Assembly (NCBI GenBank): GCA_005798335.1
Contig: SYJV01000107.1
Location: 1 to 47,951, forward strand
Source of the DNA: Planctomycetaceae bacterium
GTDB taxonomy: Bacteria; Planctomycetota; Planctomycetia; Pirellulales; Pirellulaceae
Length of the DNA: 47,951 nt
Direction: 5' to 3'
Part shown: positions 3,401 to 35,815 of the stretch, one piece after another
Layout of the letters: each line of letters starts with the position of its first letter
Numbering within the stretch: position 1 is the stretch's first letter
The notes under the pieces: generated by a model
Told to the model about the DNA's origin: nothing
The model's input: only the letters and a program-made list of their open reading frames with translations
The model's database searches: none
Translations under genes and position numbers: made by a program

Positions 3401-3667
3401 GCAGGTTTAGTTCTAGTGAGACAGCGTCCGGGAACTGCCAAGGGAATTACTTTCGTAACGCTCGAAGATGAAACCGGAACTGTGAACCTGGTACTCAAGC
3501 CCGAAGTGTGGCAGCGGCATTATAAAGTTGCTCGTCGCTCCAATGCGTGGCTCGCTCACGGAGTACTCGAAAGCCGCGATGGGGTCATGCACATAATCGT
3601 TGGTCGCATAGAAGACCTCACCGATAGGATTGGATCAGTTCCAGGCAAGTCTCGTGATTTTCATTAA
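419..3667 (+). CDS. dnaE2: Error-prone DNA polymerase III alpha subunit DnaE2
   Basis: A C-family DNA polymerase of 1,082 residues for translesion synthesis and damage-induced mutagenesis, normally working with ImuA and ImuB. The N-terminus is a PHP domain (HCKTNFSFLEGAS near residue 6). The palm carries PDIDVDF, with catalytic aspartates about D419 and D421, and a third in LKVDCLALG (about D568). Helix-hairpin-helix and OB-fold segments occupy the C-terminal third. The length and the absence of a long C-terminal tail fit DnaE2 rather than replicative DnaE1. A TTG at 389 would add ten residues, but ATG at 419 puts the conserved start of the PHP domain at the N-terminus, so it is preferred. 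The upstream gene runs off the window, so an imu cassette cannot be confirmed. Confidence 0.95.
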   Translation: MQYVELHCKTNFSFLEGASHPDELVEQAQRLGYAGLAITDRNSLSGVVRAFTAANDCQLRMIVGAELHPIDGPPVVVWPSDRASYGRLCKLITRGRMRREKGHCELRWNDIIQLRDGLLVGILLREPVLDEITVRDKLHRQESSAFVWEANDGSKQSLEHFDVPSITFNSCDDAGWLGWLHFLRDVFGDTAYLLAQLHRGVDDRDKLARLDRLSRDSRVPLLASGDVHYHVPARSILHDCLTATRMGTTIEIIQAERLANSQYHLRQLDEIQRIFQEAPDAIARTNEVADRCGFSLAQLKYEYPIELAPDGQRPIDYLKRLAWEGAKGRFPDGVPEKIINLLRHETNLIEELGYEAYFLTVWDLVRFARSMGILCQGRGSAANSVVCYCLGVTSVNPNELDLLFERFISRQRNEAPDIDVDFEHQRREEVLQYIYAKYGRHRAGMTATVITYRTKSAIRDCGKALGVSLDRLDSLSKLVDSRYEEGSLEHRAAEIGLDPESAIGKRFIYLVQTLVGFPRHLSQHVGGMVMTQGWLCELCPIENASMDGRTVIQWNKDDLDDLGILKVDCLALGMLSAIHRAFDLMAEHYERTLTLATVPREDLAVYDMICQADTIGVFQIESRAQMSMLPRLRPRCFYDLVIEVAIVRPGPIQGQMVHPYLQARKTGIQPEYPTDEIRDVLAKTMGVPIFQEQAMRLAVVAAGFTPGEADQLRRAMAAWRRPGVIDSFRQKLIEGMRAKGLPDKFAEQVFTQIRGFGEYGFPESHAASFAILVYVSCWLKYHYPAVFCAALLNSQPMGFYAPAQLVQDARKHGVEVAGVDVNFSRWDCTLEPIGDHHSKPVRRLRLGLNIIRGLAISVGSVIEIARDKAGPFRDLADFTRRCRLGQASITILADAGALQSLAGDRRAAYWQALAQEKSAMPMPLLEAYGANTDDPLPEHIQPMRAVEEVQADYQTTGLSLRAHPFSFLRAELEKLRVTPAAHLEHVSDGRFLHVAGLVLVRQRPGTAKGITFVTLEDETGTVNLVLKPEVWQRHYKVARRSNAWLAHGVLESRDGVMHIIVGRIEDLTDRIGSVPGKSRDFH

Positions 3668-3787
3668 TGAATTGCGACAGTTGCTGAATGAACTTGATTA
3701 ATGGGTGGACCGTTACAGCTTGACAGCCGCACAAAGCTGAACGCAAGTGATGAACCTCAATTAGATGCTTGCTACAATTACCGTACG

Positions 3788-4780
3788 ATGGAAAATTCCA
3801 ATCTACCTACGCCACACAACAACTTCTTTCAGTTTGCGTTATCGCACGTTGAGTTGTTGCGGAGCTTAATAGAAACTCAGTTGCCTGTCGAACTCGTTGC
3901 CGCATTGAATTTGAGTTCACTAGCGCTGATAAAAGGCAGCTTTGTTGACCCCAATTTGCGCGAGATGCACTCGGATCTATTGGCTTCTACACGGTTGACT
4001 GGTCCGCTTGGCGAACATGACGAAGAAGTGCTAATCTACTTTCTGTTCGAGCATAAAAGCGAAGCGGAACCGTTGACGGTTCTGCAGTTGCTGGCGTACA
4101 TCGTGCGTATTTGGCAGCAGAGAACCCGCGAGGGCAAACCGTTGTGCGCGATCGTGCCGCTGGTAATTTATCATGGCTCGAGCCGCTGGAAGACCGCGCG
4201 CCGAATTAGCGACTTGGTACGCGTTCCCAAGATTTTTGATCAATACCTTGTTCAATTCGGATTTCGACTGGTGGATCTTTGTGAATTATCCGATGAGGAA
4301 GTTTCCGGCGAGCCATTTTTACAAGCCACGTTGCGGCTGCTAAAATACAGTCGTAGCCAGGAATTGCCCAAGCGACTTAGGCCGATCCTGGAATTGTTGG
4401 TCTCGGTCCCGCAATTCAGCAGCATTGAGGTTTGGATTCAAGCCATTGGAGTATATATCATGGCGGTAAACAAAACGATTGGCGCTAGCGAACTGTCTGC
4501 TATCGTTCAGCAAGTGTTCCCAACTCAATTTGAACTCGGCTCGCTCGCGGATCGTCTGTTGACCCAAGGGCGACAAGAAGGAGCCCAAGTCGGTAGACAA
4601 GAAGGTATACAAACAGGTAGACAGGAAGGAGTCTTGATTGGCAAGATTCAATTGCTGGAAGAACTCTGTGGCGTCGAGCAAACGAGTGGTGACAAGTTGC
4701 TATCGTTGAGTTCTGATCAGCTTGAATTGCGAGTCGCGGAACTCCAGACGCAACTTCGCGATCGTCGCTCAAAGGAGTAG
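3788..4780 (+). CDS. Rpn family PD-(D/E)XK nuclease (transposase_31/YhgA-like)
   Basis: Resembles the recombination-promoting nuclease (Rpn/YhgA, COG5464) family: an N-terminal NNFFQFALSHVE segment, an aspartate in MHSDLL, then a strand with FLFEHKSE that supplies the E-x-K of a PD-(D/E)XK site. The C-terminus carries three tandem GRQEG units followed by a Gly-Lys segment, typical of this family. ATG at 3788 starts MENSNLPTP and gives 330 residues; an in-frame ATG at 3701 would add 29 residues without family-like sequence. It follows dnaE2 by 120 bp on the same strand but is probably a separate, mobile-type gene. Known members cut DNA and promote RecA-independent recombination; activity here is inferred. 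Confidence 0.85.
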   Translation: MENSNLPTPHNNFFQFALSHVELLRSLIETQLPVELVAALNLSSLALIKGSFVDPNLREMHSDLLASTRLTGPLGEHDEEVLIYFLFEHKSEAEPLTVLQLLAYIVRIWQQRTREGKPLCAIVPLVIYHGSSRWKTARRISDLVRVPKIFDQYLVQFGFRLVDLCELSDEEVSGEPFLQATLRLLKYSRSQELPKRLRPILELLVSVPQFSSIEVWIQAIGVYIMAVNKTIGASELSAIVQQVFPTQFELGSLADRLLTQGRQEGAQVGRQEGIQTGRQEGVLIGKIQLLEELCGVEQTSGDKLLSLSSDQLELRVAELQTQLRDRRSKE

Positions 4781-4917
4781 TTTGACTGCATAGCGTTGTT
4801 GGGATCGCTGGGTAGCAATAAGTGGTCTTAATTGTTTGGTCTTGCAAATTGCAGATTTCGAATTGCAGAACTCAGAATCAAATTGCAGGTTGCAATGGCA
4901 AGCTAGCAGGGGCAACT

Positions 4918-7900
4918 TCAGCTCTTGCTATCAACTTTGGTTCGGATTGCCCAGTCGGTGGATTGTTCGAGCGAGGAAACATCGTAGGGACGAAATCGTG
5001 CAACCGAACTTGTCGCATCGTCGTGTGCGAGCAGAACATTGGGACTTAGCTGCGATGCGGCGATCGAATCGATCAAATTTGTAGAATCGTTCGCGCCCAT
5101 CTGCATCAGTATGCGCACTTCAATTTCGCGCAACGCCGAGCGGCTAAGCCATCGGTTGGCGGTGGACGCGTTCTCGGCCCAAATGGCGACGTGCACGCCA
5201 TGGCTGGGACCATCTCGTAGAATTTCCTCAAGCAACTTGTCCGGTGTAAGACTGGATTCACCGAACGATCCCATGCCAAATTCATCTTCTCGCCTCAACG
5301 TTCGCAGCCGTCCAATCTGTACCAGTACAACCAGCAGCGGAGTCCAATTCGATTCCTCGACGGTATTGTCGATGCGCTGCTTCAATTGTGCGTGGACCTC
5401 TGCCAACATTTCGTCAACACCTCGCGCGTCGACGATTTGACTGTTTGCGTACCCGACCTTCAATCGATCACCTAGTTGCAAGCAACTTGCATCAGTGGGT
5501 TTTGCAGCCTGGACGAGGATAACTTTCGAAACGGATAGTCCGTAGTGATGCACGAACGAGGCTATCACAGAGTTCAGTACCGCCGCAGCGTGCGAGTCGT
5601 CAGCCCCGACTAGCAGAATATTCCGACCTGCCTGCTGAGTAAGCGGAATTACTACTCCTGGATTGATCGCAACGCTGTCACCCAACAAGCACCAGCAAGC
5701 GTTTGCATTCAAAGTCTTGCGAGCAGTTTCAATCGCTAGGGCAGCGCTCGACGAATCCCAATTCGAGGCCCGATTACCTTCGTAAACGACTGTGTGCCCC
5801 AGCATATTGGTGCTTGGGTCGGAATTGCGATACTGCGTGGGAAATTCTGCGAACCAAGCGATTTGCTCTTGTTTGGTCAACCAGCCAATTTGCATGGTTT
5901 GATTGCCTTCGATCCTGCCGCCTGCATCGTTGTAAACGGCTTGCCCGGGATGCTTGAGACGTGCAGCGGCTGGATTGTCATCGGCAAAAATCATCTGTGC
6001 GTCCGCCGCATCACACTGCAAAGCGACGCGCACTGCCATTTGCCCCATCGTCGTTCGCGGCAATGAATATGCTCCCGACAGAGTCTGGCTGCTCAGAATC
6101 GAGTGTACGCCGAACGAACGCCCTTGCCGAACGATGCGATCCAGAATCAAGCTGGCTTGATTGGATAGCTTATCATCTTCGACAAACAACTCCTGGAACT
6201 CATCAATTACGATCAATACGCGCGGCAGCGGCTGGTCTGGACGTACCAGATTCCAGCTTGCCAAATCCTGAACACCAGCTTCACGAAACATCTGTCCCCG
6301 GATCTGCATGCAGCGATCGATATGCTCCAGCGCGCTTAAGCCAAATTCGCGTTCGCTCTCGATGCCAATGATATCGGCATGCGGCAATCGACCTTGACCA
6401 TAGACTTGGAATTCGACTCCTTTCTTGAAGTCGAGCAAGACCATGCGAAGTCGCTCTGGCGAGTACTTCACCGCTGCGCTCGTTATCAATGCGTGCAATA
6501 GAGTTGACTTGCCCGAGCCCGTTTTGCCGGCGATGATCGCATGTTGGGCTGTGCCTATGCCCAGTTTCATGGAGTGAATGCGGCCGACACCACTTTGGCC
6601 AATCGGAATTTCCAGCGATTTTGAGCTGTCGGCGGTCCAATGTTGCTCTTTGGGTGGAACGATGGATTGCAAAGGAACTTCCACGCGCGCCGCGAGTATG
6701 GCTTGTCTTCCGGATTCTTCGACCAACCATTGCTGTTGATTCTCGTCAGGCAGTCGCGGCGGATCGATGGGCAGATCCGCATATTGCGCACCGTTCAGCC
6801 TAAGTCCTTGGCCGTTATCGGTAACCGTCAAATGTAAACCCCGGCGCATGACAGATTCACAGTGTTCGGACGTCAGCCACGGTAGGTTTGGATCGATCAG
6901 CAATATCGGCACGATGCCGCAACGCGTACCAGAATCCAGTAAACTTTGTAACGCTTTCCACGAGTGATCATCCAGCCCCGCGGGAAATGAGGACCAAACG
7001 AGCAGACGATACGGTTCAGCCAGCGAGCCTGCATCACGATTGTATTCGACGATACTGCGATACTGATTGCGCAGCGATTGCTGGATAAAATCCTCGGCAG
7101 CCATGGCTAGTTGATCGATTTGCCTGGCGATGTGTCCCGGTTGAGTCCAGACGCGATGTGTGACCAATTGTGGATCGAAGTCGGCCAAGTGCATCAACCA
7201 TCCGAAATCTCTGCCAAGCGCCGGTGGATCGATAACGCATACTTGAGTCTTGCCTGGCGGCAAACTAGTTAGGGCCCGCAAGATCAAGTTCCGCACCGAG
7301 CACTGTGCCACTTCGCTTGCAGGATCGCCTGTCAGCGTAAGATATTTGTCCTCGATGGGCTCAAAGGTAACTGTTGCCATATGGGGTATAGGGCCGTTGG
7401 CGCGAACATCTTCGTGCAGCAAATCGTCTACAGCCAGCGATCCGATCGGAAAAATAGGTTGTTCCAATCGACATGGCCAATCTCGGTTAGACCAAGTGCT
7501 GTTGGTCCAAACAGGAAAATGCTGTTGGCACCATTGATTGCCCCGTTGCATGAATTGCAGCGCGGTACTGCTGGCTCGAAGTAGTCGTCGGGCGCCGCTG
7601 CGGTCAATGCGTTCGATGTGGGCGACGATTGAGGATTTGCTTTCCACAAACCTAGTTTCGACATCCGAGATAGTCTGTTCGTGTCGAGCCAAAAAATCGT
7701 GCTGGCGAGACTTGAATTGTTGGTCAGTTGAGGCAATCGACTGAGTAAGCTGGTCACTCGCAGAACGTTTTTCGGCTGTATGGCTTTGCGACAGTAATTC
7801 GAGCTGCTGTTTGACCTTCGAGTTGATTTCGGTGACTTGTTGTTCGCGCCATTTGACAACTTTTTCGATCTTGGCGTCGCGTTTGTCGGCCAATCGTTTG

Positions 7901-21619: not shown

Positions 21620-22200
21620 GTCTTCGACCGAGTCGCGCACAACGGATCTATTTCGCAAGTTGCCTTTAGCCCCGATTCCAAAGGCCGCTTCCTCGCGACA
21701 GCCATGACGAATGTAAAAGTCTGGGATTGGGCAACCAATTCGACCAAACCGCTTCACAATTGGCCCGGTTGCAGAGCCGGCACGTACGATTTAGCGTTCA
21801 GCCCGGATGAAAAAACTGCTGGCAACAGGAGGTCGCGATGGCCTCGTTCGATTCCATAGCCTCCAGTCCGGAAAAGAAGAATTCACTCTCAATGCACATC
21901 AGTTGGCGGTCACCAGTGTCGGCTTCAGCCGCGACGGCGCACGGTTAGCCTCGGCGGGGCTGGAAGGCGATATGCATGTTTGGAACGTGAAGAAACGGCA
22001 ACGCCTATTCACGATGCACGGTCACAGCGGTAGCGTTTGGGATTTGGACTTTGCGCCAGGTGACAATCAACTCGTCTCAGCCGGCCACGATTTTCTGGTG
22101 CGCGTGTGGAATGCTACTGCCGGTCAAGAAGCGGCCCCACTTCCGATGCAGGCGCGTATGGCGTCGGTCCGGCGATTCGATTCGTGTGAGTCAAAGTCAC
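21620..22200 (+). pseudogene. WD40-repeat protein pseudogene (copy 2)
   Basis: Two plus frames join into one WD40 protein. The first carries SQVAFSPDSKGRFLATAM, VKVWDWA and YDLAFSPDEK up to about 21812; the second carries KLLATGGRDGLVRFHSL, SVGFSRDGARLASAGLEGD, MHVWNVKKRQRLF and VRVWNATAGQE. The switch falls in the A-run of GATGAAAAAACTG, a single-base-type indel. No start codon in family context is visible, and after about 22180 the sequence loses repeat character. Its 5' part overlaps the antitoxin's upstream DNA on the other strand. The intact parent was probably a multi-repeat beta-propeller protein. Confidence 0.7.
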
Positions 22201-23787: not shown

Positions 23788-25602
23788 TTACAGGGTACGA
23801 TAGGGGGTTCCAACTTGAATTTCTGAGGCCGTTTGCTGGAAGGGGGAGAGGGGTTTTTCGAGGGTTTGCCAGTGGCTTCGTTTAATGGCGGCTCCTTGCA
23901 ATAGTGGGCCTAGGCCGTACTCGCGGAGTTTGGTGTTGGATCGGATCAGGAGTTGAAGTTGAGTGGGGTCATCAAAACCGAGTTCGGCGGCGACATCGTC
24001 GAGTTCAAGGTCTCTTTGGTACGAGCGAGCCGTTGTGCCGACTGGCTCTGGGATGCTCTTAATGTCACCGTCGGCAGAGCTCTCGGTTTCGAGGAAAGGA
24101 CTCATCGCTTCATTAACGGCTTGCACAAATCGTTGCTCGTCCTTTTCGAGTAACTTATCCATCTGTTCCCTGGTGGCAAACAGGCGGCGCGCTTTGACTT
24201 GCGCCTGTCCGCCGATCGCGAGGCCCTCGCGAACTGTATCTCGGAAGCGAATCGTGCCACGTTCGTGACAAGCCATACATGAGATTCCGTTGACGACCTC
24301 GGGCGTTCCGGAGGTCTCTTTCAAATCGCGAACGATCTCGATGGGTCCCTTATCGATACGATTTCCCTTCGCGTCAGTCAGGAGATATCCCTGAAGACCG
24401 TTTGGAAGGTTGAAAATCATCTCACCTCCCGCATGTTCAAAGACCTGATTCGGAAATGGGTTGTCTGCGAAACTCGGACCGAGAGGGAATTGGAAAAGGT
24501 TTCCTTTCGTTTCGCTCTTTTCAAAGTCGTAGCTTTTCCAATACGCTCCGTAAAGCGCGACGTGTCGATCAACAAGTCGATTGTGGCGGGACACTCCGCT
24601 CTCTGCAAAACCGGCTCTGGCGAGTTTGTCGCGAAGAAAGTCGGTCTCGGGATTAACTCGCAACGATTTTTCCAGGTCCCCAACAACCGTCGGCAGTCCC
24701 AGGATAGTATGATACAGCGGCGGACGCGAGGCGTTGTCGACGAACCAATCGACTCGCACGGCGGGAATCTTCGAGTTGGTCAGTTCATAAACCTGAGTCG
24801 CCAGTTCGCGAAACTCGTCGTCCATTGGAACAGTCTCGTGGGTTAATCCGTAGGGATACCGCTTGAGGATTTCGTTCCAGAGATTCTGTTCGTCCCAGCC
24901 GAGGTCACGAAGATCAACGACCAGAAGAATCTCCTCTTCACCCTGATCGACAATGCGAGGAACGACGATTTCCGGCTTCCAACTCAGGCTGTTGACCAGC
25001 TTGGCCAACGCGGCGCGAGCCAGACGCAGGTCAGAGTCATCCAAGTTCTTGCCCTGCCGCCCGATCCGCTTCTCGAACGAATTGTTATGCAAATTGGTCA
25101 GCGTGAAGTACCGTCGAAAACGACGATCTTCGCGGGCGGTCGCCATCAGGTCGTCCTTCATCCGGACGAAGACTTGCTTTTCGCTGACGTGCTTGCGAAC
25201 GCCGGCCTTCGGAAACGGAGCCTCCGCTTCGATCCATTTTTTGAGGACGGTCAACTCCTCCGCAGTGGGCTTGGGGTTATCGCCGGGAGGCATGTCCTTG
25301 CGAACTCCGGCTCGTTGCCACATTAGGGATTTCTCCGGCTGACCCGATACAACGTACTTCAGGTCTTTGTCTTCCTCCGGAACCTTGTCGAGTAGGATGC
25401 TGCGACTAAGAACGTTGAAGCCTTCGACTTCGAACCGCTGTCCGTGGCATCGATAACAATATGTCTTCAGGATTTGATAGCCTTGAGCGGCCAAGTCACT
25501 CGCTTCGTCGGCTTTGGTCAAGGGTGTCATTGACGGAAGGCTCAGTCCCGTCATCGTCAGTAGCAGCAAGCGAGCAAACCAATTGCGTGGCATCGTAATC
25601 AT
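23788..25602 (-). CDS. Exported cytochrome c-like protein with two haem-binding motifs
   Basis: 604 residues. A signal peptide (first about 31 residues, cleaved near KADEA) precedes a planctomycete-type cytochrome c segment with CYRCHG near residue 48 and GQPEKSLMWQRAG, and a second site CMACHERG near residue 440. Between them is a long uncharacterised domain including a PFPKAGVRKH segment and GPSFADNPFPNQVFEHAGGEM. It is probably periplasmic and binds haem; redox role unknown. The start codon follows GAGGAAG by three bases. It is the last gene of the CHAT island and has its own copy of the shared promoter (25648-25673), so it belongs to the same regulon although separately transcribed. Confidence 0.8.
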   Translation of the reverse strand: MITMPRNWFARLLLLTMTGLSLPSMTPLTKADEASDLAAQGYQILKTYCYRCHGQRFEVEGFNVLSRSILLDKVPEEDKDLKYVVSGQPEKSLMWQRAGVRKDMPPGDNPKPTAEELTVLKKWIEAEAPFPKAGVRKHVSEKQVFVRMKDDLMATAREDRRFRRYFTLTNLHNNSFEKRIGRQGKNLDDSDLRLARAALAKLVNSLSWKPEIVVPRIVDQGEEEILLVVDLRDLGWDEQNLWNEILKRYPYGLTHETVPMDDEFRELATQVYELTNSKIPAVRVDWFVDNASRPPLYHTILGLPTVVGDLEKSLRVNPETDFLRDKLARAGFAESGVSRHNRLVDRHVALYGAYWKSYDFEKSETKGNLFQFPLGPSFADNPFPNQVFEHAGGEMIFNLPNGLQGYLLTDAKGNRIDKGPIEIVRDLKETSGTPEVVNGISCMACHERGTIRFRDTVREGLAIGGQAQVKARRLFATREQMDKLLEKDEQRFVQAVNEAMSPFLETESSADGDIKSIPEPVGTTARSYQRDLELDDVAAELGFDDPTQLQLLIRSNTKLREYGLGPLLQGAAIKRSHWQTLEKPLSPFQQTASEIQVGTPYRTL

Positions 25603-25647
25603 GGCTTCCTCAAGATGGTATGAGTATTGTCCAGCATCCTATTCGAG

Positions 25648-25673
25648 AACGAATCGACTTGCAATTTCTTCCC
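25648..25673 (-). promoter_or_regulatory. Putative ECF-sigma promoter P3
   Basis: On the minus strand GGGAAG (25673-25668), exactly 16 nt, then CGTT (25651-25648). This has the same form and spacing as P1 and P2, and shares the AT-rich AAATT after the -35 element. It begins three bases past the CHAT stop codon and lies about 46 bp before the cytochrome gene's start. GGAA-N17-CGTT is the classical layout of ECF promoters. Confidence 0.65.
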
Positions 25674-25675
25674 GA

Positions 25676-28600
25676 TCAATCTCCGTTTCCGACCAAAACG
25701 AACGCGGCCCAATAGTAAGGGTCGGCGAAGGGGCGGTCGCCGCTGGGAGCCCGGGCGTTCTCACCCAAGAATTCTTTGACCAGCTTGTCTGCCTCCGGCT
25801 TTGTGAGGTTACGCAGCCATTGCTTTGCCTCGCGCAATGCGTCGGCTTTGGGGAGCGGCTGGACGGGAGCGTAGGTCTTCCGGGAAACCGTGCGAGGCGA
25901 GTCAAACGAACCGAGGACATTTTCGTAAAGGCGTGACATCAGCAGTGCGGTCGCTGTGTCATCCACTTCCCACAGACTAGCAATAACACACCGAGTTCCG
26001 GCGTACAAAAAACCCCAAGTCAGCGCGACGAATCCGTCTCCAGAAGACATCTCGCCGCGCGCCGTCCGACAAGCGCTGAGCACAACCATCTCAGTCCCTT
26101 TGAGTTTCCCGCCCCATCCTTCCAGCAAGTTGGCCAGAGTGAGAAAGCCGTTGTCGTCGAGCGTCACCGTTGGAGGAGCGGCAAACGCCAGTGCAGATTC
26201 GTGAGCCTTGCGACCTCCCTCAGCCAACCCGTGTGTCGCGAGATGCAGAAAGCGCGGATGATCGACCGCCTTCATCAGGTTGGCCACTGTGGCTTGGTCA
26301 CTCAGCAGCACGCGCGGAGCGGAACGGTCTGTCGATTTCGAAGGCCAGCGTGAGACGATCGCGTTGATTTCGGCACGGGTTCCCGGAAGAGGAGACAACT
26401 GACCGAAGCGGTTGAGTGCTCGTGTCCGTCCCAGTAGCGGAGCATCGATGGGGCCTGACGTTTCCATGTTTGTTGAGTCATTACCACGCGAGAACGTTGC
26501 ATCGCCAAGAGCCACGAGATCCGTGCTATACGTCTGATCCGTTGGCTTGTTCCGATCGCCAAGCATGATCGTGGCCGATGAGCCGTATACGAACGACGGT
26601 GCGTCGTCCAGCAAAACCTTGTCACCATCGGCGTCGAGGAAGAGTGACTCTAACGGCAACCGATGCAAGGCTCCATCGGCAACGATGAAGACCTTTTCCG
26701 ACTTGCTCAATATCTTACGAACCTTGTCTGGTACGACAGCCTTCGCCAGTTCATCGGGAGCGAAGAGCTCGATTGACGTGACCGAGTTGTTCGTGCCGGA
26801 CGTCTCGCGGGAGATTTCCTCGAAGAACTCGGCAACGTTGGCGTTCAGAGATTCCTGAGTGACCGGCTTGCCGTCGGGCCACGCGAGGAAAAGCCCCTCA
26901 ACATTTCCATCGGGAGTGACCGTCAACAGCACGCTCTCGCGCGGACCGATGTCATAGACCAACAGCGCTTCGCGCGGGCCAAGCTGGTTCGCAACCTCGT
27001 CGCTGGTGAGCGGCTTTCTGGTTTCGTCCTGTATGATAGTGCGCGCAATGTCAAACAGATCGCGGGCGGCCTGCCGGTCGGTGTCGCGCGCGGTATTGAT
27101 CTCTGCCATCTGAGCCTGCATTGCTTGCGGATTCGTCGGAGCAATCGCTGGAGCAGCGACCTGGTTCAGAGTTTCGCGAGCCTTCCGTTGTTGGGTGCGC
27201 AACGTTTCGACGCGAGACTTCAGTGCCTCGTCGTTCCGTCTGCGAGCGGCTTTGCTGGCGAGTTCGGCTGGGTCACCACCACGCCGACTCGTCAGATCCA
27301 GCAGCGCTCGTCCTCGTCCCGCTTCGAGCGTATCGAACGCAATTCGAGGTCCAAACCGTCCGAATCCGATAGAATCCGCATAGCCTTCACCGGCTTCAAG
27401 CTGAATTCGTACCATCTGCGAATAGGGGTTGAATCGCGTCAACTCAGTAAAGAACTGCGAGCGAGACAGTTCATCACCTGCAATTTTGGAACGCTGTTGT
27501 TCGACGGATGCGATGCCGTGCTCGAGTACGATTGCGGCCTCTGCGAACCGGCCCGAACGACGCAGCGATTCGGCAAAAGTGACGGTCGGCTGCATCCCCG
27601 CCAGGTAGTTAACCATCGCCGCCCGACTTTCCAGGCGCATCGCACAAGCCCACCCGTCGTAGGCCATCGGTGTTGCTTCCGACAGCGAGCCACCGCGCAT
27701 CATGATGACGTCAGAACATCCCGCGAGTGTTTTCGCATACTTACTATTGGATTGAATGGCCCAACGCGAAAACATCTCTGTCAGTGAAGCTCGAAATATT
27801 TTCTCTGCTTCCGTGAAATCCCCGCGTGCAATCTGGATGCGTGCCAGGTTTGCCAAGTCATCTCCATGCATTGAGTACAAATCTTCGCCCCGATATGCAG
27901 TGACAGGGCTCCACAGTTCCGGGTCTTCGATTTGCTTCTTCAACTCCCTTAGTTCAATGCACTCCCGATAGACCCGTTCTGCCTCATCGAACTTTCCCTG
28001 CTGTTCCAGCATTGCCCCCAACTGCGAGAGTAGTGTGAACAGTGCGTAAAGCTGAGGTGCCGTTCCTCCATATCTCTGATCGCGGGGAAGTTTCATCGTC
28101 TCCTTGATTTTCTGATGCTCCTTCTCCCACTTCGTACGCTCGATGGCAACCGATTCTGATACTTCGACGCCTCGTCGGCACTGCCGACGATTGATAGAAC
28201 GACGGCCAGGCTCCTGCAAACCATCGAGTGCTGAAAGTCATCGCCGACTTTACGAGTCGTCGTCAAACGGTAGGCTTCACGAAGAACTCGTTCCGCGGCG
28301 GCATAATCACTTTTCAGCATCATGGCGGTGGCCGTGGACGTGAGTTCGGAAGCCGCATCGGCTTTCGTCGATCCTGCCTGTCCTACACCGGCGAAACTCA
28401 GGGAATCAATGGAAGTCGTTTGAAGCATCCCTTGAGTAGTTCCGCCGGTCCAGTTGCCGTTTCGTTTTATCAGAAAAGGAACCAGGTAGTTTGTTAAGCT
28501 CGGTCGGTAGGCCAATCCTGCTCGTAGAGCCAAGGGTACTTGTGACGCTGTCTCGTGATCGAGCGTCGCCAATTCGGCCATGTAGATTCGATGGACCCGT

Positions 28601-30351
28601 TGTTGGTCGTTAGGACTCAACGAACGAGAGACGTCGCGAGACAGAGCAAAAGCCCTCAGTGACGGTTCTCGTTGTCCCTGCTGTTCACAGGCTCGGCCCA
28701 AGTTTGCCAGGATCAGTACCCCATCGAGTGTGGCCAATTGATGATGCTTTTGCAGCAGGTTGACGGTGAATGCGAGCAGCTTTTGAGCGGCTCCATGATC
28801 GGCCCGATCCATTCGAACAAGAGCGAGGTTGCTGATTGCTCGCGCTGTCCATGGATGGGCGTCTCCCAGTATCTTGCGAACTCGGTCAATAACTTCGAGA
28901 TGGAGCGATTCGACATCCTGGCCCGCTGCCCCGCGTAGAAGAAACGCCAACCAACTCGTGGCTGCGATGGAATCGGAGCAATCGTTTCCCAGATGGTCTC
29001 GCCGAACGGTGCGCTGATCGACTGCCAAGAGAAACGATTTCAATGAATCGTCCCGTTCTTGTAACAACGACAAGTTAGTCGCATCTGATTGAGTGATCTC
29101 CCAACGCGCGTTATCTTTCAGTGTGAGGATTCGTTCTAGAGTTTGTTTCAACAACGCGGACTCACGAGTTCGCCAGTGATTCTCTCCCAGGGCAATGCGG
29201 CACTTTTTCAGCAGTGAGTTCGCCGACTGATTCGCTTCGTCGTATTTGCCGGCAGCGCGCAGGTCCGCAATCGCCGATCGCAGCGATGACAGATCGGAAC
29301 TCTCGTTCTTCAACGCGGCATCTTTCGCTCTGGCAAAATCATTTGCCAGTCGCTGGAAGAACTCATCCCAATCTGGAATGGGAGGAAGTTGGACGAGCAG
29401 TTGCTCCGTACCCGGCTCGCGTCGAGTGGAGATGTCTCGATCCTCATGTGCGTTGGACAAGTACGTCTCATATCCGGTTCGTTCATACATGTGGGACACG
29501 TCGGGCACGTTGAGATCGAATGTGACGCGGCGATGCAATCCTTGTTTGATGGGAGTCGTGCCGTACAGCATTCCGGCAGCATCGTGAGAAAGGTCAAACC
29601 GAGGTAAATTGCGTTGAAAGTTTTGAAGCCACCAAGCCGAATCATACGTGATCGGATTGAATCGGCCTCGCGAAGCCTCATAACGGTTTTGCTTTACGAC
29701 GTCGTCGTAATTCAAGTATCCGTCCCACTTCTGCCCACCGGCTTCAATGGTCACATGGTATCTGGGTAAATCAGGTCCGAATTCGTAGCTCACTCGCCGC
29801 ACTTTCAACGACGTTCCGTGCGGGATCAAGTAGTCATCGCCCTTGTTGTAGTCACCCTTCGTGAGACGCAACGGTCTTCCGTCCGGCTGGTACAACGGTG
29901 CTCCGTCTTTCTGTCCAAATAGACTGGCTTTTCTTGACACGATGACAGTGTCGCCTGCTTTGATCTCCAACTCGTCGCGGCGATTGAAGACAAAGGGGCG
30001 ATCCCACGGTTCCAATTCGATCTGCGGGCGGCCTCGGTTTGGAAGCTGCGATGCGGCCGGAGCGGGACTGGTCATCGAGGCGATTGTCACGTCCTGTATG
30101 CTCACCCAACCGGATCGCTGTTGGCCGCCGAGCTTCACCGTCGCCTGCAACCACACGCCGCTGATCTTCTCGACTGTGAATTGAGTTCCTTTCGGCAGCG
30201 TGCCGACTTGGTTTTGTCCGGCCATCAACTTGGTGGCGGCCGCATTCACGGTTACCTTGTCACCAACCTGGATCGCTGGCGGCTGAGCGAGCGCCGAAAG
30301 TCCAAATCCGATCCACAACACACAACCTGCAAACATCCACGTCGGCTTCAT
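25676..30351 (-). pseudogene. Exported SH3-TPR-CHAT protease, disrupted by a frameshift
   Basis: Two overlapping minus frames (30351-28093 and about 28219-25676) form one protein of about 1,558 residues. From the ATG at 30351: a signal peptide (MKPTWMFAGCVLWIGFGLSALA), an SH3-like domain (about 30-100), a beta-rich region to about 330, a long TPR region (about 400-1020) and a C-terminal CHAT domain with both catalytic residues visible: His in HLATHG and Cys in VVLSACRTARGE (663rd and 717th codons of the second frame). The break is at about 28150-28155, where SADEASKYQ in one frame continues as SVAIERTKWE in the other. A missing base in CAGAATCGG would restore it. CHAT proteases cleave specific partners when activated through TPRs. 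The gene starts 14 bp after its upstream neighbour and ends three bases before promoter P3. Programmed shifting or sequencing error are alternatives. Confidence 0.8.
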
Positions 30352-30364
30352 AAGGCTGGCTCCG

Positions 30365-31465
30365 TCAAGGTGTCGTTGGTTTGGTGTAGCGGCAACTGAT
30401 GGCGGCGCGTGTGCGGCCGATAACTCGCTGGATTTCTTTGTATTTGGCGGCGATTTCCGGGCCTCGTCCGGTGGCGTTGTCGCCTCGACGAGTCTCATCG
30501 GGTGGAGCCAATCCATCGACTGGCCAAGCAGCGCTGACACTGCAAGTGATCGTGCCTAGGTCAGACGTCTGCTTCAGTTCCGCAGCGGCGCTCTTGGCGT
30601 ATTCGGTCACGAGGAACGAATCGGAAACCTCGTTCGTGCGATGCCAGCCGTAGATGGTCCCAGTCGATTTCGCGCCGATGATCACGTAGCCCAACTGCCG
30701 GTAGGAAGCATTTTGGCTGAACGAAAACATGCTTAAGCCATCGATCGTCAGCGTGACGGCAGCATCGTAGGGAGAGTCGTTATGGAACAGCACGGCATAG
30801 GTTTCGTCAGGCTTGATCGGCACATAGGCAAGGCCCTCGTCATCGGTCGCACCGCGCGGCAACCAATCGCTGCCGGACTTGACCAACACTTCTACGGCAT
30901 ACGGGCTGCTGGTACTGGTGGCGATTCTCGACTGCGCAATCGAGGCTTTCGGCTGGTCGATGCTCTCGCGAATCTTCTGCCGTCGATCGCGAGGACTGTC
31001 ATCGGGCGGCAGATCCACCGTGATGCCGAACATCGACGCAACGGTGATGTCGTTTGAGAAGCCTTTCTCAAATTCGTAGACCACATTGCCGCTGGCATCG
31101 AGGACTCGACCTTTCAGTAGCGCGGCGGGACCACGGTTCTTTTCGCTGACGACCGCCAGGTAATCTCCTTTGATTTCGAGGGAAGCCCGTTTGTTAACCA
31201 TGATCCCCAGCTTGGTCAGCTCTTCGGAAAGAGCCTTTGCAATCGATGGACCTGAACTTGATGGCATTCTCGACGGACCGGAAAATTGTCCCACTGCAAT
31301 CCGGTTCTCGTTCTTTTGCTCCAAAACGCTAGCGATGTTTTTGGCGACATCGACGAGTTCCTTTTGAATCTCGGTCGAAGCCCGTGCGTCACCTTGAATT
31401 GAAACGAACAAAACCAACGTGGCCGTAAGACCAAAATGCGGAGTCAGTCGTGATACGAGTTTCAT
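30365..31465 (-). CDS. Exported island protein B, paralogue of the upstream gene
   Basis: 366 residues with a signal peptide (cleavage near ARA-S at about residue 29). The N-terminal domain AKNIASVLEQKNENRIAVG, with QFSGP and ELTKLGIMV, resembles FlgO/CsgG-like outer-membrane-associated folds; this is a by-eye similarity. The C-terminal half contains FHNDSPYDAAVTLTIDGL, YGWHRTNEVSDSFLVT and ends GRTRAAISCRYTKP. The upstream gene has the same domain order and motifs (NKAPYDVSVVFMLDG, GWHRTNDYVDKFLVTDF, TRAVITVRYSKP), so the two are tandem paralogues. AAGGAG precedes the start. Periplasmic or envelope role with the CHAT protease is inferred from operon position. Confidence 0.75.
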   Translation of the reverse strand: MKLVSRLTPHFGLTATLVLFVSIQGDARASTEIQKELVDVAKNIASVLEQKNENRIAVGQFSGPSRMPSSSGPSIAKALSEELTKLGIMVNKRASLEIKGDYLAVVSEKNRGPAALLKGRVLDASGNVVYEFEKGFSNDITVASMFGITVDLPPDDSPRDRRQKIRESIDQPKASIAQSRIATSTSSPYAVEVLVKSGSDWLPRGATDDEGLAYVPIKPDETYAVLFHNDSPYDAAVTLTIDGLSMFSFSQNASYRQLGYVIIGAKSTGTIYGWHRTNEVSDSFLVTEYAKSAAAELKQTSDLGTITCSVSAAWPVDGLAPPDETRRGDNATGRGPEIAAKYKEIQRVIGRTRAAISCRYTKPTTP

Positions 31466-31482
31466 AAAAAGGCTCCTTAAAT

Positions 31483-32724
31483 TCAGTGGTTATCCGGTTT
31501 GGAGTAGCGGACGGTAATGACGGCGCGCGTCTGACCGAACTCGCGCGGGGCGGTATCTTCCTTGACTTGCTGAGTATCTCGTTCACCTTGACCAATGCCG
31601 AGAACCACCGCATGCGTGGCGGTTTCATCGGCAGGTGGCCGCTCCGATTGTCGCCAAGTTGCCTGAACTGAAGCGGTGATCGTTCCGAGTCCACTGGCAC
31701 TACCAAGCTTTGCGGCGGCGCTTTCGGCGAAGTCGGTGACCAGGAACTTGTCTACGTAGTCATTCGTGCGATGCCAACCCTTCAGGGTGAAAGAATGACT
31801 GCGAGAGACGATCCACCTTCGGTACTTCGCTTCGCCGCGCCGTGGTCCCTGTGTTTCTCGAACATCGCTGAACGAGTACGAATTGACTCCGTCGAGCATG
31901 AAAACCACTGAGACATCGTAGGGAGCTTTGTTCGTGAATTGAATTTGGAAACTTTCCCCTTTGTCCAAATGGACGAATGGCTGGCCATCTTCGAGCTTTA
32001 TTGGGCGAGGCCGACCTTCGACGAGAATCTCCATGTGGAATGGGCTTTCTCGGCTTGCAGCTACGCCTGTTCCATTCGCCATCAAAGCGACCGTTGGTTT
32101 CTCGAAACTGTCGATGACTGACTCGGAGCCACCGGAGAAGCCATCTTTGTTTTTTTGTTTGAGATCAACGGTTGCTCCCAAAACTTCGGCGAGCGCACGT
32201 GCTCCCCCGATGTCTCCGATTCCTCCGTAGGCGTCGATGGTCAGCGTCCCCTTGGCGATTCTTGTCTTGTCGATGATGGGCTGACCGTTATCTTCGACAC
32301 CGACTTTGACGGCGACTTCGACATTCAACTCGGTCAACACCTGACCGTTCTTGTCCACAAGCGAGGCCAAAAGTTGCAAATGAGGCGGCCCCTTCTGCGC
32401 TCCGGCGAATGCGGCTTGATCTTCTTGAACGAGATACTTTCCCTGGATGCCGATACTGGCTCCGATCTTCTTTTCACGAATGCCGACTTTCGCGAACTCT
32501 TCCGCAAGCACTTTGCGTATCCCTGGGCCCGCCGCAGACGCGAAGGACGGCGGGCCGGTGAACTCGCCAATTGAGATCGAGTCCGAACCGCGATCCTGCA
32601 AGACCTGCGAAACCGCTTTGGCGATCCTGGCAAGAGGTTCGCGCAGGTTTTCGTTGCCACGCCCAGTCACAGGCGTCAGTGCTGAGGTTACCAAGAAGAT
32701 CAGCGTGAAATGATTCGTTCGCAT
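31483..32724 (-). CDS. Exported island protein A, paralogue of the downstream gene
   Basis: 413 residues. A signal peptide (MRTNHFTLIFLVTSALTPVTG) is followed by an N-terminal FlgO/CsgG-like domain (LARIAKAVSQVLQDRGSDSIS, GEFTGP), a middle insertion with VGVEDNGQPIIDKTRIAKG absent from its neighbour, and a C-terminal domain sharing GWHRTN, FLVTDFAESAAAKL and a TRAVITVRYSKP ending with it. GAGGAA lies ahead of the start. It is followed 17 bp later by the paralogue. I do not recognise a characterised family for the whole; the pairing suggests a heteromer. Confidence 0.75.
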   Translation of the reverse strand: MRTNHFTLIFLVTSALTPVTGRGNENLREPLARIAKAVSQVLQDRGSDSISIGEFTGPPSFASAAGPGIRKVLAEEFAKVGIREKKIGASIGIQGKYLVQEDQAAFAGAQKGPPHLQLLASLVDKNGQVLTELNVEVAVKVGVEDNGQPIIDKTRIAKGTLTIDAYGGIGDIGGARALAEVLGATVDLKQKNKDGFSGGSESVIDSFEKPTVALMANGTGVAASRESPFHMEILVEGRPRPIKLEDGQPFVHLDKGESFQIQFTNKAPYDVSVVFMLDGVNSYSFSDVRETQGPRRGEAKYRRWIVSRSHSFTLKGWHRTNDYVDKFLVTDFAESAAAKLGSASGLGTITASVQATWRQSERPPADETATHAVVLGIGQGERDTQQVKEDTAPREFGQTRAVITVRYSKPDNH

Positions 32725-32828
32725 GATAATAGGTTCCTCAACTGGAATGACTCGATTTCAACGTAGCGTGGGACTTGAGATCCTCGACACACGCTACGAA
32801 TGTCCGTACTTGGCATTTTCGGCAAGCA

Positions 32829-33308
32829 CTATGGTGCTGGAAACGAAGGAGCGTCTTCTGGCGGCAAGTCGAGCGTGGCTCCTTCTTTCGGATCGGAGTC
32901 TGGAATCGCGGGCATCTTGCCTGGAGGCGGGAACGCAGATTCCGGAATTTTTTCCAAATCCTGCTGCCGGTCTTCCATCTTCAGTAGCGAGTACTGCGGC
33001 TTGCCAGCGTTCTCGATCGGGCAGCGGCCCCAATATTTCTGTGTCTTAGGGTTGTAGTAGTAATAATGCTTCGGTTTTTTCGAAAAGTAATGGACTTCGT
33101 GAGTGCGATAGCCAGCGTAATCGGGAGTCGGCTTCGCGTAATACTTGCGGATGTGGAAATCTCCACGAGAAGGCGGCGCTTTTTGCCAATCCGAGTAGTA
33201 CTGGCGCGGTGCGTAGTTCTGAGCCATCGCGGGTTGAGTTGCCGCAACTCCCAGAAATAATCCTAAGGCGAGGCCACTCAGTACCAGGTTCGGTAGCGTT
33301 CGAGACAT
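32829..33308 (-). CDS. Small secreted Tyr-rich protein
   Basis: 159 residues from the ATG at 33308, which follows AAGGAG. The signal peptide is cleaved after PAMA-Q near residue 29. The mature chain has unusual Tyr and Lys density in its first half (YYSDWQKAPP, RKYYAKPTPDYAGY, KHYYYYNPKTQKYWG), followed by an acidic Pro-rich tail. No family recognised. It is the first gene behind promoter P2 and probably heads the transcript containing the two paralogues and the CHAT protease. A later WGRCPIENAG segment holds its single mature Cys. Confidence 0.7.
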   Translation of the reverse strand: MSRTLPNLVLSGLALGLFLGVAATQPAMAQNYAPRQYYSDWQKAPPSRGDFHIRKYYAKPTPDYAGYRTHEVHYFSKKPKHYYYYNPKTQKYWGRCPIENAGKPQYSLLKMEDRQQDLEKIPESAFPPPGKMPAIPDSDPKEGATLDLPPEDAPSFPAP

Positions 33309-33408
33309 TGAATTTCTCCTTGAATCGGAAGACCATACGAGAACGGTCAGTTGAGCCGCCACGTCACTTTCGCATCGAAAGCAACTCGCGGAGGCTTCTA
33401 CTAAAGAC

Positions 33409-33434
33409 AACGAAACAGATGCGAATTTCTTCCC
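33409..33434 (-). promoter_or_regulatory. Putative ECF-sigma promoter P2
   Basis: Minus-strand GGGAAG (33434-33429), 16 nt, CGTT (33412-33409), with upstream TTCTT. It has the same architecture as P1 and P3 and the same AATTCGC-like stretch after the -35 element. It lies about 101 bp upstream of the Tyr-rich gene, matching the distance (about 102 bp) between P1 and its gene. Confidence 0.7.
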
Positions 33435-33537
33435 AAGAATCTTTGGGCGAAGGAAATGACACTAATAAATAAACGACTCGATCTGGGCCGCTTATCATAA
33501 CAGACAACATGGTATTCATAAGAAACAGGCTACGGTA

Positions 33538-34410
33538 TCAACCAATTGTTTGAGCGCGGTCACGGATTGCCATGATGAGTTTGCTAATGGTCTCATCAGC
33601 AGCGGCACGAACGGAGGAAATGTCTTCGCCGGATTCTATGGCAATGAGGTGTGCATCCAGTTTCGCGGCCCAGGCTCGGCAGCGTTCTACGAGCCAATCG
33701 CGGTCTGGCTGAGCGAGCGCGGTATGTTCCGTAAGAATGAGCGTCGAGCAGCCCTGACGAAATTGTGCGATGCGTCGAGCAAGATCCGAGGCATTCTCCG
33801 GCCGCTTCTTAAACCAGTCCTGAGCCGCATTGGCTAATTGTTCAAGGTACTGGCGAGGCGGCAATTGGACAGCCAGAACGCCGGGTTTTTCCCAACCCCA
33901 GCCCGGTGCCGAAGCAGGAACCAACCGGTCTCGCACTGAAAACGCAATCAGCAACAAGGCTGCCACTGAAAGGACCGCAGCGATCGTCGCTTGGCCAAAC
34001 CAATTGCCGCGAATGGCTGGAGAAACAGGAGCCGAGGCTGGCGGCAACATCACTGTTTCAAGCAGCTTCCATTGCGACGCCAGTGTGATTTCCTCTTCGC
34101 GGCTCAATGGAAGTTGCAGCCAGTACTCACTTCCGCGCAGCACGACTTCGTTCTGAAGCGACAGCAACAGTTGCGGATGCTCTAGCAACTGCCGCAACTG
34201 TTTTTCGTCCAAGGCCGCCAGACCCTTCTGTAACACGCTGTCCATACTCTCACCGAGAGCCTGATCCAATGACAGTTCGTACGCGCGCGTGCCGTGTACA
34301 ACCTGCAGTTCCGCGACGAGATCGCCAAGCTGCAGTCCCAACAGGTGGGACTCCAGCCAGTCGACTTGTTCGCACCGATCTTTTGGGATGTCGAGAGAAA
34401 TTGGGGTCAT
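33538..34410 (-). CDS. One-helix membrane protein in the anti-sigma position
   Basis: 290 residues from the ATG at 34410. The N-terminal part (1-137) is soluble and mostly helical, one transmembrane helix lies at about 138-159 (ATIAAVLSVAALLLIAFSV), and a C-terminal part of about 130 residues would be outside the cytoplasm. The start overlaps the sigma factor stop by four bases (ATGA), so the two are translated in a fixed ratio, as anti-sigma factors usually are. No zinc-binding HxxxCxxC motif of the ZAS type is visible. The topology suits a membrane anti-sigma factor whose extracytoplasmic part senses a signal; that role is inferred from position, coupling and topology. Confidence 0.6.
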   Translation of the reverse strand: MTPISLDIPKDRCEQVDWLESHLLGLQLGDLVAELQVVHGTRAYELSLDQALGESMDSVLQKGLAALDEKQLRQLLEHPQLLLSLQNEVVLRGSEYWLQLPLSREEEITLASQWKLLETVMLPPASAPVSPAIRGNWFGQATIAAVLSVAALLLIAFSVRDRLVPASAPGWGWEKPGVLAVQLPPRQYLEQLANAAQDWFKKRPENASDLARRIAQFRQGCSTLILTEHTALAQPDRDWLVERCRAWAAKLDAHLIAIESGEDISSVRAAADETISKLIMAIRDRAQTIG

Positions 34411-35000
34411 GCCAGTTTGCCTTGCATGCAATTCGCGAGAGCTTGCTTGGCGCGGTGAAATCGAGTCATCGCAGTGTTGCTGGGAATTCCGAGTTCGAGA
34501 CTGATCTCTTCGTGGCTTCTTCCCGACAGTCGAAGCTTCACGACTAGCTGCCGTTCCTGATCGAGTCCCCCAAAACACTCGCGGAAGGCCAAAAGCCGAC
34601 TCTCGTTGATTTCAGTGTCAGCGGCTATGCGTTCCGCCGGGTCAATCTCTTCCGAAAGCGACTGCGTTCGTCGTTTGCGAGACTCGTCGATCACCCGGTT
34701 ACGAGCAATCTCGTACAGCCATGATCGGAATTGCCCCCCTTTGAACGACGTCGGCAATACGCGCCACACGCGATGCCAGACATCCTGAGAAAGGTCCTGA
34801 GCTGCGTCGGCGTTGCGGGTTCGAGCCGCAATGAAGGCCAAAATCAATCGGCCATAGCGAGAGTGCAGGTGTGCAAATGCTACATGAGCCGACTCAGAAG
34901 GTGGCGGGGGATTGGCTCCCTCCGCCACTCTTTTGGCCAGCTCTTCATCGGTCGCGGAAGGATCAAACTCGGCAATGCTCATGGCAATAGTATATTCCAT
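34407..35000 (-). CDS. ECF-type RNA polymerase sigma factor
   Basis: 197 residues. Region 2 is clear (LHSRYGRLILAFIAARTRN, DAAQDLSQDVWHRVWRVLP, FRSWLYEIARNRVIDESRKR), and region 4 (LDQERQLVVKLRLSGRSHEE, ISLELGIPSNTAMTRFHRAKQ) carries the helix-turn-helix for the -35 element. There is no region 1.1 or 3, as expected for ECF factors. ATG at 35000 has GGGTG upstream; an ATG at 34982 would remove six residues. It lies 27 bp behind the small secreted gene and overlaps the membrane protein gene. Three GGAA-N17-CGTT-type sites in the island, one upstream of the first gene of this transcript, suggest autoregulation. Confidence 0.92.
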   Translation of the reverse strand: MEYTIAMSIAEFDPSATDEELAKRVAEGANPPPPSESAHVAFAHLHSRYGRLILAFIAARTRNADAAQDLSQDVWHRVWRVLPTSFKGGQFRSWLYEIARNRVIDESRKRRTQSLSEEIDPAERIAADTEINESRLLAFRECFGGLDQERQLVVKLRLSGRSHEEISLELGIPSNTAMTRFHRAKQALANCMQGKLA

Positions 35001-35027
35001 GTCACCCGGGCATTGAAGTCACCGTCG

Positions 35028-35297
35028 TTAGTAGCAGACCTTAACTACCTTTTTCACGGGAATTTTGACCGTGACATAGCTGACAACTTTCGCTTCGTAG
35101 GGCCGACCACAGTGATCGTACTTCGTCACCCAATCGACGACCGGCTGAGTCTGCAGCTTTCAAACGATGACGGTCTTGTAGTAACAAGTTGGTGTCGTAC
35201 AGTGATCCGCCGAAGCACTCGATGTACCAACCAGAGTGATCGCTCCAGCAACCAGCATTCCACAGACTGCTTTCTTGAGAAGATTGGTGATGTTCAT
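35028..35297 (-). pseudogene. Small secreted Cys-containing protein with an in-frame TGA
   Basis: From the ATG at 35297 (behind GAGGAA) it has a good signal peptide (MNITNLLKKAVCGMLVAGAI, cleaved near SASA-D) and a short mature start DHCTTPTCYYKTVIV, then TGA as codon 46. The same frame stays open beyond, reading KLQTQPVVDWVTKYDHCGRP and YEAKVVSYVTVKIPVKKVV up to KVCY and TAA (35028-35030), and the join looks like one protein: 90 codons in total. Either the stop is a mutation or assembly error, or it is read through. It sits first after promoter P1, 27 bp before the sigma factor. Function unknown. Confidence 0.65.
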
Positions 35298-35815
35298 GAT
35301 TTCCTCTTTCGACGCTTGCTTGGTGATGTTCGAGGCGTCAGGCGAGCGAAGCGTGATAGCTTCCTGTGATTCTCGTTTCTTTGCCTCACACTCAAGGAAA
35401 CGAACCAGTCGTGAATTCCTTCCCAAAAATCTCTTCTTGACTCGAAATACTTGCTGACGAGCACAGCAACGCCTCTCAAATCCTATAGTTTCCTGTGAAA
35501 AACCTGCCTCGCCAAAGCACTCCTACCTTTTAGTTCGGCCAAAAACAGTCCATCTACGGGGAACTGGATTTTCCAGCGGTTGGACTGAGTCTTGCGGAAT
35601 ACATAAGCATTAGATGGATCGCAGCCTAGCTACCTACCTACCTAGGATTCGCAAACATTCTTCGATGATTCTAATGCGGAGATGAACGACCGAGGGTATG
35701 GGCAAAGATCCTGAGTGGGCCTAGTACATTCCCTTGCATGGAATCGCCTAGCCTCGCTGGCCCGCTATTGTTCTGCCAATGCTGGTGGGAAAGCTGAAGA
35801 CGAAATCAACTGCGC
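35298..35815. other. Leader and intergenic region beyond the CHAT island
   Basis: 518 bp. It includes the 5' leader of the small secreted gene and promoter P1 (35399-35424). From about 35480 onward nothing was recognised beyond a short CTAC/TACC tandem around 35630-35645. An open frame at 35715-35957 on the plus strand is antisense to the MMPL gene and was not accepted. Confidence 0.5.
35399..35424 (-). promoter_or_regulatory. Putative ECF-sigma promoter P1 (autoregulatory)
   Basis: Minus-strand GGGAAG (35424-35419), 16 nt, CGTT (35402-35399). A preceding AGATTTTT matches AGATTCTT before P2. It drives the small secreted gene and, with only 27 bp separating that gene from the sigma factor, the sigma and membrane-protein genes as well. 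An ECF factor transcribing its own operon is the usual pattern. Confidence 0.7.

Follow-up and report, generated by a model that had tools for sequence, protein, structure and literature searches.

A promoter-like motif, GGGAAG-N16-CGTT, is conserved in a family of planctomycete gene islands, where it is tied to a gene pair for an extracytoplasmic function (ECF) sigma factor and a membrane protein, as well as to genes for caspase-clan proteases accompanied by a c-type cytochrome-like protein (cytPS) and FlgO-like proteins. The island considered here lies in a stretch of 47,951 nucleotides (nt) of a Planctomycetaceae bacterium (assembly GCA_005798335.1, contig SYJV01000107.1), the whole of which is called the window. 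With a probability of roughly 0.66, the sigma factor and its neighbouring membrane protein, a putative anti-sigma factor, form a switch whose regulon would comprise its own operon, exported caspase-clan proteases and, as frequent partners, cytPS and FlgO/PelC-like proteins. Bacterial caspase homologues are described in an excerpt of PMC3501461 as widespread, with roles and control largely unknown; in this context, exported caspases could be probed concretely by way of the island's candidate switch, its promoter sequence, the two partner proteins and the gene families defined here.

Three exact matches to GGGAAG-N16-CGTT occur in the whole window, all of them inside the island (P1, P2 and P3, Table 1), while 100 shuffles of the window gave a mean of 0.15 matches and none reached three. 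All have a 16-nt spacer and an AATT stretch after the -35 element, and with the AATT included (GGGAAGNAATT-N10-TCGTT), the 8.46-Mb assembly has no perfect match besides P1–P3. The original prediction, made from the sequence alone, had placed three minus-strand sites with this spacing and AATT at the same positions, each in front of an island gene, and in this it was right. P1 lies 102 nt upstream of the gene for a small exported protein which precedes the sigma gene, P2 precedes the Tyr-rich gene, with its ATG at 33308, by 101 nt, and P3, which begins directly after the CHAT stop codon, lies 46 nt upstream of cytPS. P1 heads the sigma factor's own operon, as had been proposed, with the correction that a small Cys/Tyr gene stands between the two.

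Relatives have the motif as well, at the same spacing. In 32 related islands (469 kb, window excluded) 13 exact sites were counted at N16 and 6 at N17, with 0–4 at each other spacing between 10 and 24. Genomes in which nothing matches the putative anti-sigma factor are termed pair-less, the pair being the ECF sigma factor plus this protein; 14 loci from such genomes (235 kb) held no exact site at N16 and one at N17, the reversed pattern giving 1 and 3. At the heads of the sigma operons, a match of at least 9/10 at N16 or N17 was found in 17 of 30 cases (15 at N16), compared with a mean of 1.52 and a maximum of 5 in 60 shuffles, 2 on the reverse strand and 0–4 with other spacing pairs; L154 and L161 were left out of this test (L and G numbers are our labels for loci and genomes). 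The position equivalent to P1 is occupied, for instance, in L084 (9401), L087 (8402), L159 (8428) and L182 (8869). The 9/10 threshold was picked after earlier motif results had been viewed, and five loci, L182–L186, were fetched afterwards. In all five, the sigma operon is preceded by an N16 match of 9/10 or better, exact in L182 and L183 and at 9/10 in L184, L185 and L186, although that of L184 lies inside the over-long predicted start of a small gene, that of L186 one gene further up, and these loci also hold relaxed matches at other places. Redundant loci had been dropped, namely L158 (a near-copy of L157), L058 and L091 (overlapping L090), and L187–L190 (matching L085, L088, L143 and L084). 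In the islands of genus g11 (L151 at 11454, L152 at 11387, L153 at 441 and 5228), GGGAAT replaces GGGAAG at N16 before CGTT, a variant which perhaps reflects divergence of the sigma factor.

With a relaxed motif, 14 of 63 effector heads in sigma islands were matched, against 4 and 2 with control spacings. The corresponding figures were 2/18 at other loci of sigma-bearing genomes (both in G138; controls 1 and 0) and 1/35 at loci of pair-less genomes (controls 4 and 2), where no exact site was present at 37 heads. Tyr-rich genes had a match of at least 9/10 upstream in 4/4 cases in other sigma islands and in 0/3 at loci of pair-less genomes, and P3-like sites precede cytPS in L086 (at N17), L157 and L044. 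Away from the sigma gene in sigma-bearing genomes, two of seven module loci had the motif, again both in G138. The GGAA and CGT elements are generic to ECF promoters and two genomes have roughly 30 copies of the bare core each, so that the motif might be read by another ECF factor, the linked sigma being merely a neighbour. This is improbable, as 17 of the 30 sigma operons have the motif at their own head, and effector genes in the loci of pair-less genomes almost entirely lack it. The proposal that the ECF factor of the window controls the genes behind P1–P3 is thus supported by motif conservation in related islands, in the five later loci and in front of distant caspase genes of three genomes that have the pair.

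These distant genes deserve separate description. The sigma gene of G138 is at 8.83 Mb. Each of the 28 exact N16 sites in this genome was inspected, and nine fall outside any open reading frame of more than 200 amino acids (aa). Five of the nine head three C14 genes (the C14-FGE gene L164, the C14 gene L167 and the WD40-C14 gene L179/L210), a cytPS-FlgO-C14 operon (L169/L044) and the small-protein/sigma operon (L087). In ten sigma-bearing genomes, 46 caspase-clan genes were tested, of which eight were preceded by a 9/10 match in the upstream 350 nt; control spacings gave 0 and 1. Exact sites head L210 in G138 (C14, the same gene as L179), L226, a CHAT gene of G159 at 0.52 Mb with the sigma gene at 4.69 Mb, and L230, a C14 gene of G528 at 4.94 Mb with the sigma gene at 0.21 Mb. 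The 46 exclude island genes, L164, L167, the C14 gene of L044, second pieces of one gene, and weak or partial CHAT matches in G114, G159, G018 and G000 (C160); L220, which was kept, lies within 10 kb of its sigma gene.

The sigma factor carries region 2 and region 4 only, the build of the ECF class (Pfam; NCBIfam TIGR02937 above cut-off), and a predicted promoter of the GGAA/CGT type stands ahead of its operon, as P1 in the window and in the relatives counted above. The single-pass membrane protein encoded after it is likely to be its anti-sigma factor, judging from position and topology, a role that the original prediction had not assigned to it. Its structure model contains a helical N-domain, one helix of membrane length (141–163) and a helical C-domain, with a mean predicted local distance difference test score (pLDDT) of 89.3 and a predicted template modelling score of 0.48. 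This layout resembles that of membrane anti-sigma factors, which adjoin their sigma and have a cytosolic domain, one helix and an extracytoplasmic domain, the orientation here being the presumed one. Cys221 and Cys244 of the C-domain show 90% conservation or more across 31 sequences. Searched against Pfam, 31 members gave no convincing family, three weak and unrelated ones appearing in 1–2 members each, and the fold search of the Protein Data Bank (PDB) returned nothing at E <= 0.001. Matches to the protein at E <= 0.001 were obtained in 28/241 family genomes and in 14/392 genomes drawn from the phylum, both counts including the window's own genome and a few marginal matches. Of 32 fetched loci, 26 contain a gene that scores with our own sigma profile. 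In L184 (11398–12216) a second sigma-like gene stands beside the pair, and the predicted 5' region of this gene contains an exact N16 motif.

Table 1. Promoter-like sites and genes of the island, with positions in the window
Feature	Position	Strand	Remarks
P1, putative ECF-type promoter GGGAAG-N16-CGTT	35399..35424	minus	exact match; heads small-protein/sigma/anti-sigma operon
P2, putative ECF-type promoter GGGAAG-N16-CGTT	33409..33434	minus	exact match; heads Tyr-rich/FlgO-like/protease operon
P3, putative ECF-type promoter GGGAAG-N16-CGTT	25648..25673	minus	exact match; heads cytochrome-like gene cytPS
Small exported Cys/Tyr-rich protein	35028..35297	minus	from translation; first gene of sigma operon, between P1 and sigma
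ECF sigma factor, 197 aa	34407..35000	minus	Sigma70_r2 4.8e-12, Sigma70_r4_2 6.1e-10, TIGR02937 1.3e-20
Putative transmembrane anti-sigma factor, 290 aa	33538..34410	minus	from alignments and structure model; start overlaps sigma stop (ATGA)
Tyr-rich exported protein, 159 aa	32829..33308	minus	start placed; homologues in 7 other fetched loci
FlgO/PelC-like exported protein A, 413 aa	31483..32724	minus	relatives in 23/149 family genomes, own included
FlgO/PelC-like exported protein B, 366 aa	30365..31465	minus	paralogue of A; model mean pLDDT 83.8
Protease gene, N-terminal part (signal peptide, SH3-like, TPR)	28093..30351	minus	TPR_12 1.5e-08; SH3_3 only 0.081
Protease gene, C-terminal part (TPR-CHAT peptidase frame)	25676..28219	minus	CHAT 3.6e-54; first ATG 28096 overlaps upstream stop
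cytPS, exported c-type cytochrome-like protein, 604 aa	23788..25602	minus	PSCyt1 7.7e-06; two CxxCH motifs

The expectation that homologous islands would share one gene set held in part: the set recurs, although not in full in each island. What the family has in common is the ECF sigma factor and the putative anti-sigma factor; the cytPS/FlgO-like pair is frequent, and so is an exported caspase-clan protease, whose type differs from island to island, a variation beyond the reach of the original prediction from one stretch. Eight of ten chosen genomes (the window's included; G138 and G528 being the other two) have a caspase-clan gene no farther than about 10 kb from the anti-sigma gene, with 0.16 expected, which corresponds to a P of about 4e-14 that is nominal only, since the genomes were chosen after their island maps had been viewed. 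This proximity and the recurrent cytPS-FlgO pair leave very little room for a chance co-location of unrelated genes, such as might arise in planctomycetes with many caspases and cytochromes; CHAT-like genes are indeed present in 58/149 family genomes, but the counts per genome in the ten are mostly low (0–16 C14 and 1–8 CHAT matches). The genes for cytPS and the FlgO-like protein are adjacent on one strand in 21 of the 24 loci holding both, the exceptions being the window, L157 and L047. In the last of these (1892–5248) the two are fused in one frame of 1118 aa, which adjoins a C14 gene.

As regards the proteases, C14-FGE types are encoded in L084, L086, L090, L143, L144, L152 and L134, a WD40-C14 type in L089 and a C14 type with a beta-helix in L160. 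TPR-CHAT types are found in L147 and L157, in L093 and L145 (by PF12770 in their genomes) and in L159 (by our own profile). By a simple script, the island proteases mostly appear to carry a signal peptide. L149, L159 and L185 were counted as protease islands on our own profiles alone. Left uncounted were the TPR proteins of L151, L152 (4493–9238) and L153, which score with our CHAT profile and have no CHAT in Pfam (that of L151 is cut by the end of the fetched stretch), L056, an FGE protein with a caspase-like part absent from the Pfam report, and a 377-aa WD40C14 match in L186 (5e-11). C14 genes adjoin FlgO/cytPS genes in pair-less genomes too (L051, L052, L057), which means that the protease module extends beyond its ECF control. 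In L057 (973–3129) a C14 caspase domain and PDZ domains share one frame beside a FlgO-like gene, and in L086 (5435–6910) a group II intron-type reverse transcriptase lies between the C14-FGE gene and cytPS. Near the island of the window, a short WD40-like frame at 21807–22235 matches our WD40-C14 profile at 1e-08.

The protease of the window is encoded in two frames. The TPR-CHAT frame keeps the His-Gly and Ser-Ala-Cys motifs and, with its CHAT domain, belongs by sequence to the caspase clan (CD) of peptidases. The signal peptide (judged, as elsewhere, by eye or by a simple script) is on the SH3-TPR frame, which starts at the ATG at 30351 and overlaps the CHAT frame at 28219–28093 in a different phase; none was seen on the CHAT reading frame itself. 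The original prediction, which had spoken of an exported CHAT protease, is corrected on this point. In the relative L157, the signal peptide, SH3-like, TPR and CHAT parts form one continuous frame of 1381 aa. Most simply, the window carries one such gene, apparently split by a frame change, either real or from assembly. A programmed frameshift was considered and set aside: a scripted scan found no in-frame X-XXY-YYZ heptamer in the overlap and, together with the continuous frame of L157, this favours mutation or assembly error. Reinitiation at the ATGA overlap (28096), leaving the CHAT part without a signal peptide, is possible. As for the FlgO-like proteins, 32 members gave no Pfam match above the curated cut-off and there was no PDB match at E <= 0.001; PelC ranks only 28th by E-value (0.05) for protein B, with a Foldseek probability of 0.93, and the best-ranked hits are unrelated beta proteins.

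The small Cys/Tyr-rich protein, matched by profile at 9 of the 32 other loci with a sigma/anti-sigma pair, is interrupted by an in-frame TGA at 35162–35160. Selenocysteine at this TGA is thought unlikely; when aligned by eye, L084, L086 and L087 have Tyr there. Together with the split protease gene, this stop means that the window copy may be damaged, and a regulon that is real in relatives and decaying in the window, where it would do little, has to be considered; it is a minor possibility, though of some substance. Both defects could be draft-assembly errors, the CHAT His/Cys motifs are intact, and P1–P3 are all perfect.

Several results weigh against the proposed regulon. No 9/10 match was present in the scanned region of 13 of the 30 sigma operons, nor at five of the seven distant module loci (G032 twice, G038, G084 and G029), nor before 38 of the 46 other caspase-clan genes, among them both genes tested in the window's own genome (a third, weak one was left out). 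The relaxed motif also precedes 18 of 234 non-module heads in the sigma islands, and a strict gene-level test gave a modest difference, with 12/130 module heads against 5/249 others (p=0.002). In the window's genome, the bare core GGGAAG-N16/17-CGTT has 36 matches and the backwards-read pattern 32, without enrichment, so that the bare core alone has no specificity at genome scale. A clear C14/CHAT gene was seen in only 16 of the 37 non-window islands (32 mapped earlier plus L182–L186; fetched stretches, some on short contigs), and four of the five last-fetched loci have none. Moreover, the membrane protein falls in none of the anti-sigma families known to Pfam, and the window copy has the two gene defects described. 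Confidence was lowered because the ten genomes were not drawn blind and the five distant module loci lack the motif, and the figure given at the outset takes this into account.

In the switch that we propose, the single-pass membrane protein would hold the sigma factor at rest, and an envelope signal, presumably sensed by the extracytoplasmic domain with its two highly conserved cysteines, would release it. The released sigma factor, with RNA polymerase, would then read the GGGAAG-N16-CGTT promoters: P1 would serve for amplification, P2 would supply the Tyr-rich protein, the FlgO-like pair and the SH3-TPR-CHAT protease, and P3 would supply cytPS. In some relatives, unlinked caspase genes would also be read. 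The products might assemble outside the cytoplasm as a haem protein, a scaffold and a protease, and handle envelope damage or an intruder.

An extension of this scheme would make the exported protease the trigger as well. By cutting the extracytoplasmic domain of the anti-sigma factor upon damage, in a site-1 role like that of DegS on RseA, it would let the sigma factor raise protease production and so close a positive feedback loop. The idea is attractive because, in the excerpts of PMC10028731 and PMC8103513, respectively, the TPR-CHAT protease Csx29 cuts the sigma inhibitor Csx30 and DegS cuts RseA. It would also suit the neighbourhood of protease and anti-sigma genes in eight of the ten chosen genomes and the folded domain modelled beyond the membrane helix, in its presumed orientation. 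Nevertheless, many islands have no nearby protease, proteases can be unlinked, and the gene of the window is split, all of which makes such feedback doubtful. Still less probable is a fuller extracytoplasmic caspase pathway, in which the haem c protein and a FlgO/PelC-like scaffold would activate the protease, which would cut the anti-sigma factor and free the sigma factor for more caspases. If true, it would be a periplasmic counterpart, outside CRISPR (clustered regularly interspaced short palindromic repeats) systems, of the Csx29-Csx30-sigma circuit, one in which a cytochrome would act before the caspase and caspases would be transcribed both in cis and in trans.

Whether or not the protease acts as a trigger, the nearest analogue of the proposed sigma/anti-sigma switch appears to be the CRISPR-linked circuit of Csx29, Csx30 and CASP-sigma. 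The type III-E CASP/Craspase locus, as excerpted from PMC10028731, comprises Csx29 (TPR-CHAT), Csx30 (the inhibitor), CASP-sigma (an ECF factor) and three sigma motifs. The island shares with it a TPR-CHAT protease with His/Cys motifs, an ECF sigma factor, a sigma inhibitor (here putative) and three copies of the motif. It differs in that the proteases of these islands are predicted to be exported and vary in type, the putative inhibitor is membrane-bound, and cytochrome and FlgO-like partners are present. Searches of the eight island proteins of the window against Pfam, NCBIfam and PADLOC yielded no recognisable CRISPR protein and no match to Cas7-11, Csx30 or Csx31 at E <= 0.1, the remainder of the window lying outside these searches and the presence of Csx30/31 models in the libraries being unchecked; the Csx29 model matched the CHAT frame at 0.0022, far below the cut-off. 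A known anti-phage defence system was also considered and rejected, the PADLOC matches being weak only (Csm3 0.01, BovA 0.0024).

With RpoE-RseA-DegS, as described in the excerpt of PMC8103513, the island has in common an ECF sigma factor whose operon also encodes a single-pass membrane regulator, autoregulation (here presumed) and extracytoplasmic proteases, whereas its proteases belong to the caspase clan instead of HtrA, its regulator falls outside the known Pfam anti-sigma families, and a cytochrome is among the partners. The N-domain layout of the FlgO-like proteins is like that of PelC/CsgG/FlgO-type proteins, with a weak structural match to PelC; the island proteins have an extra beta-sandwich C-domain and a cytochrome as partner. 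Operons of caspase-homologue genes with sigma-70 factors were noted in 2012 (PMC3501461), the section on metacaspase operons naming Myxococcus, Anaeromyxobacter, Haliangium, Sorangium, Ralstonia and Fibrobacter. For this configuration, that section mentions no planctomycete, promoter motif, membrane regulator or cytochrome/FlgO pair, which sets the island apart by description. A planctomycete ECF regulon of exported caspases was found in none of the open-access matches listed, going by titles and opening lines. In short, the circuit of an ECF factor and a membrane regulator is itself known, and what is unusual here is that caspase-clan proteases recur as its output and that its regulator belongs to no recognised family. 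The comparison suggests that the link between a caspase-type protease and an ECF sigma factor, known from a CRISPR system, may also exist in planctomycetes in a non-CRISPR form that faces the envelope.

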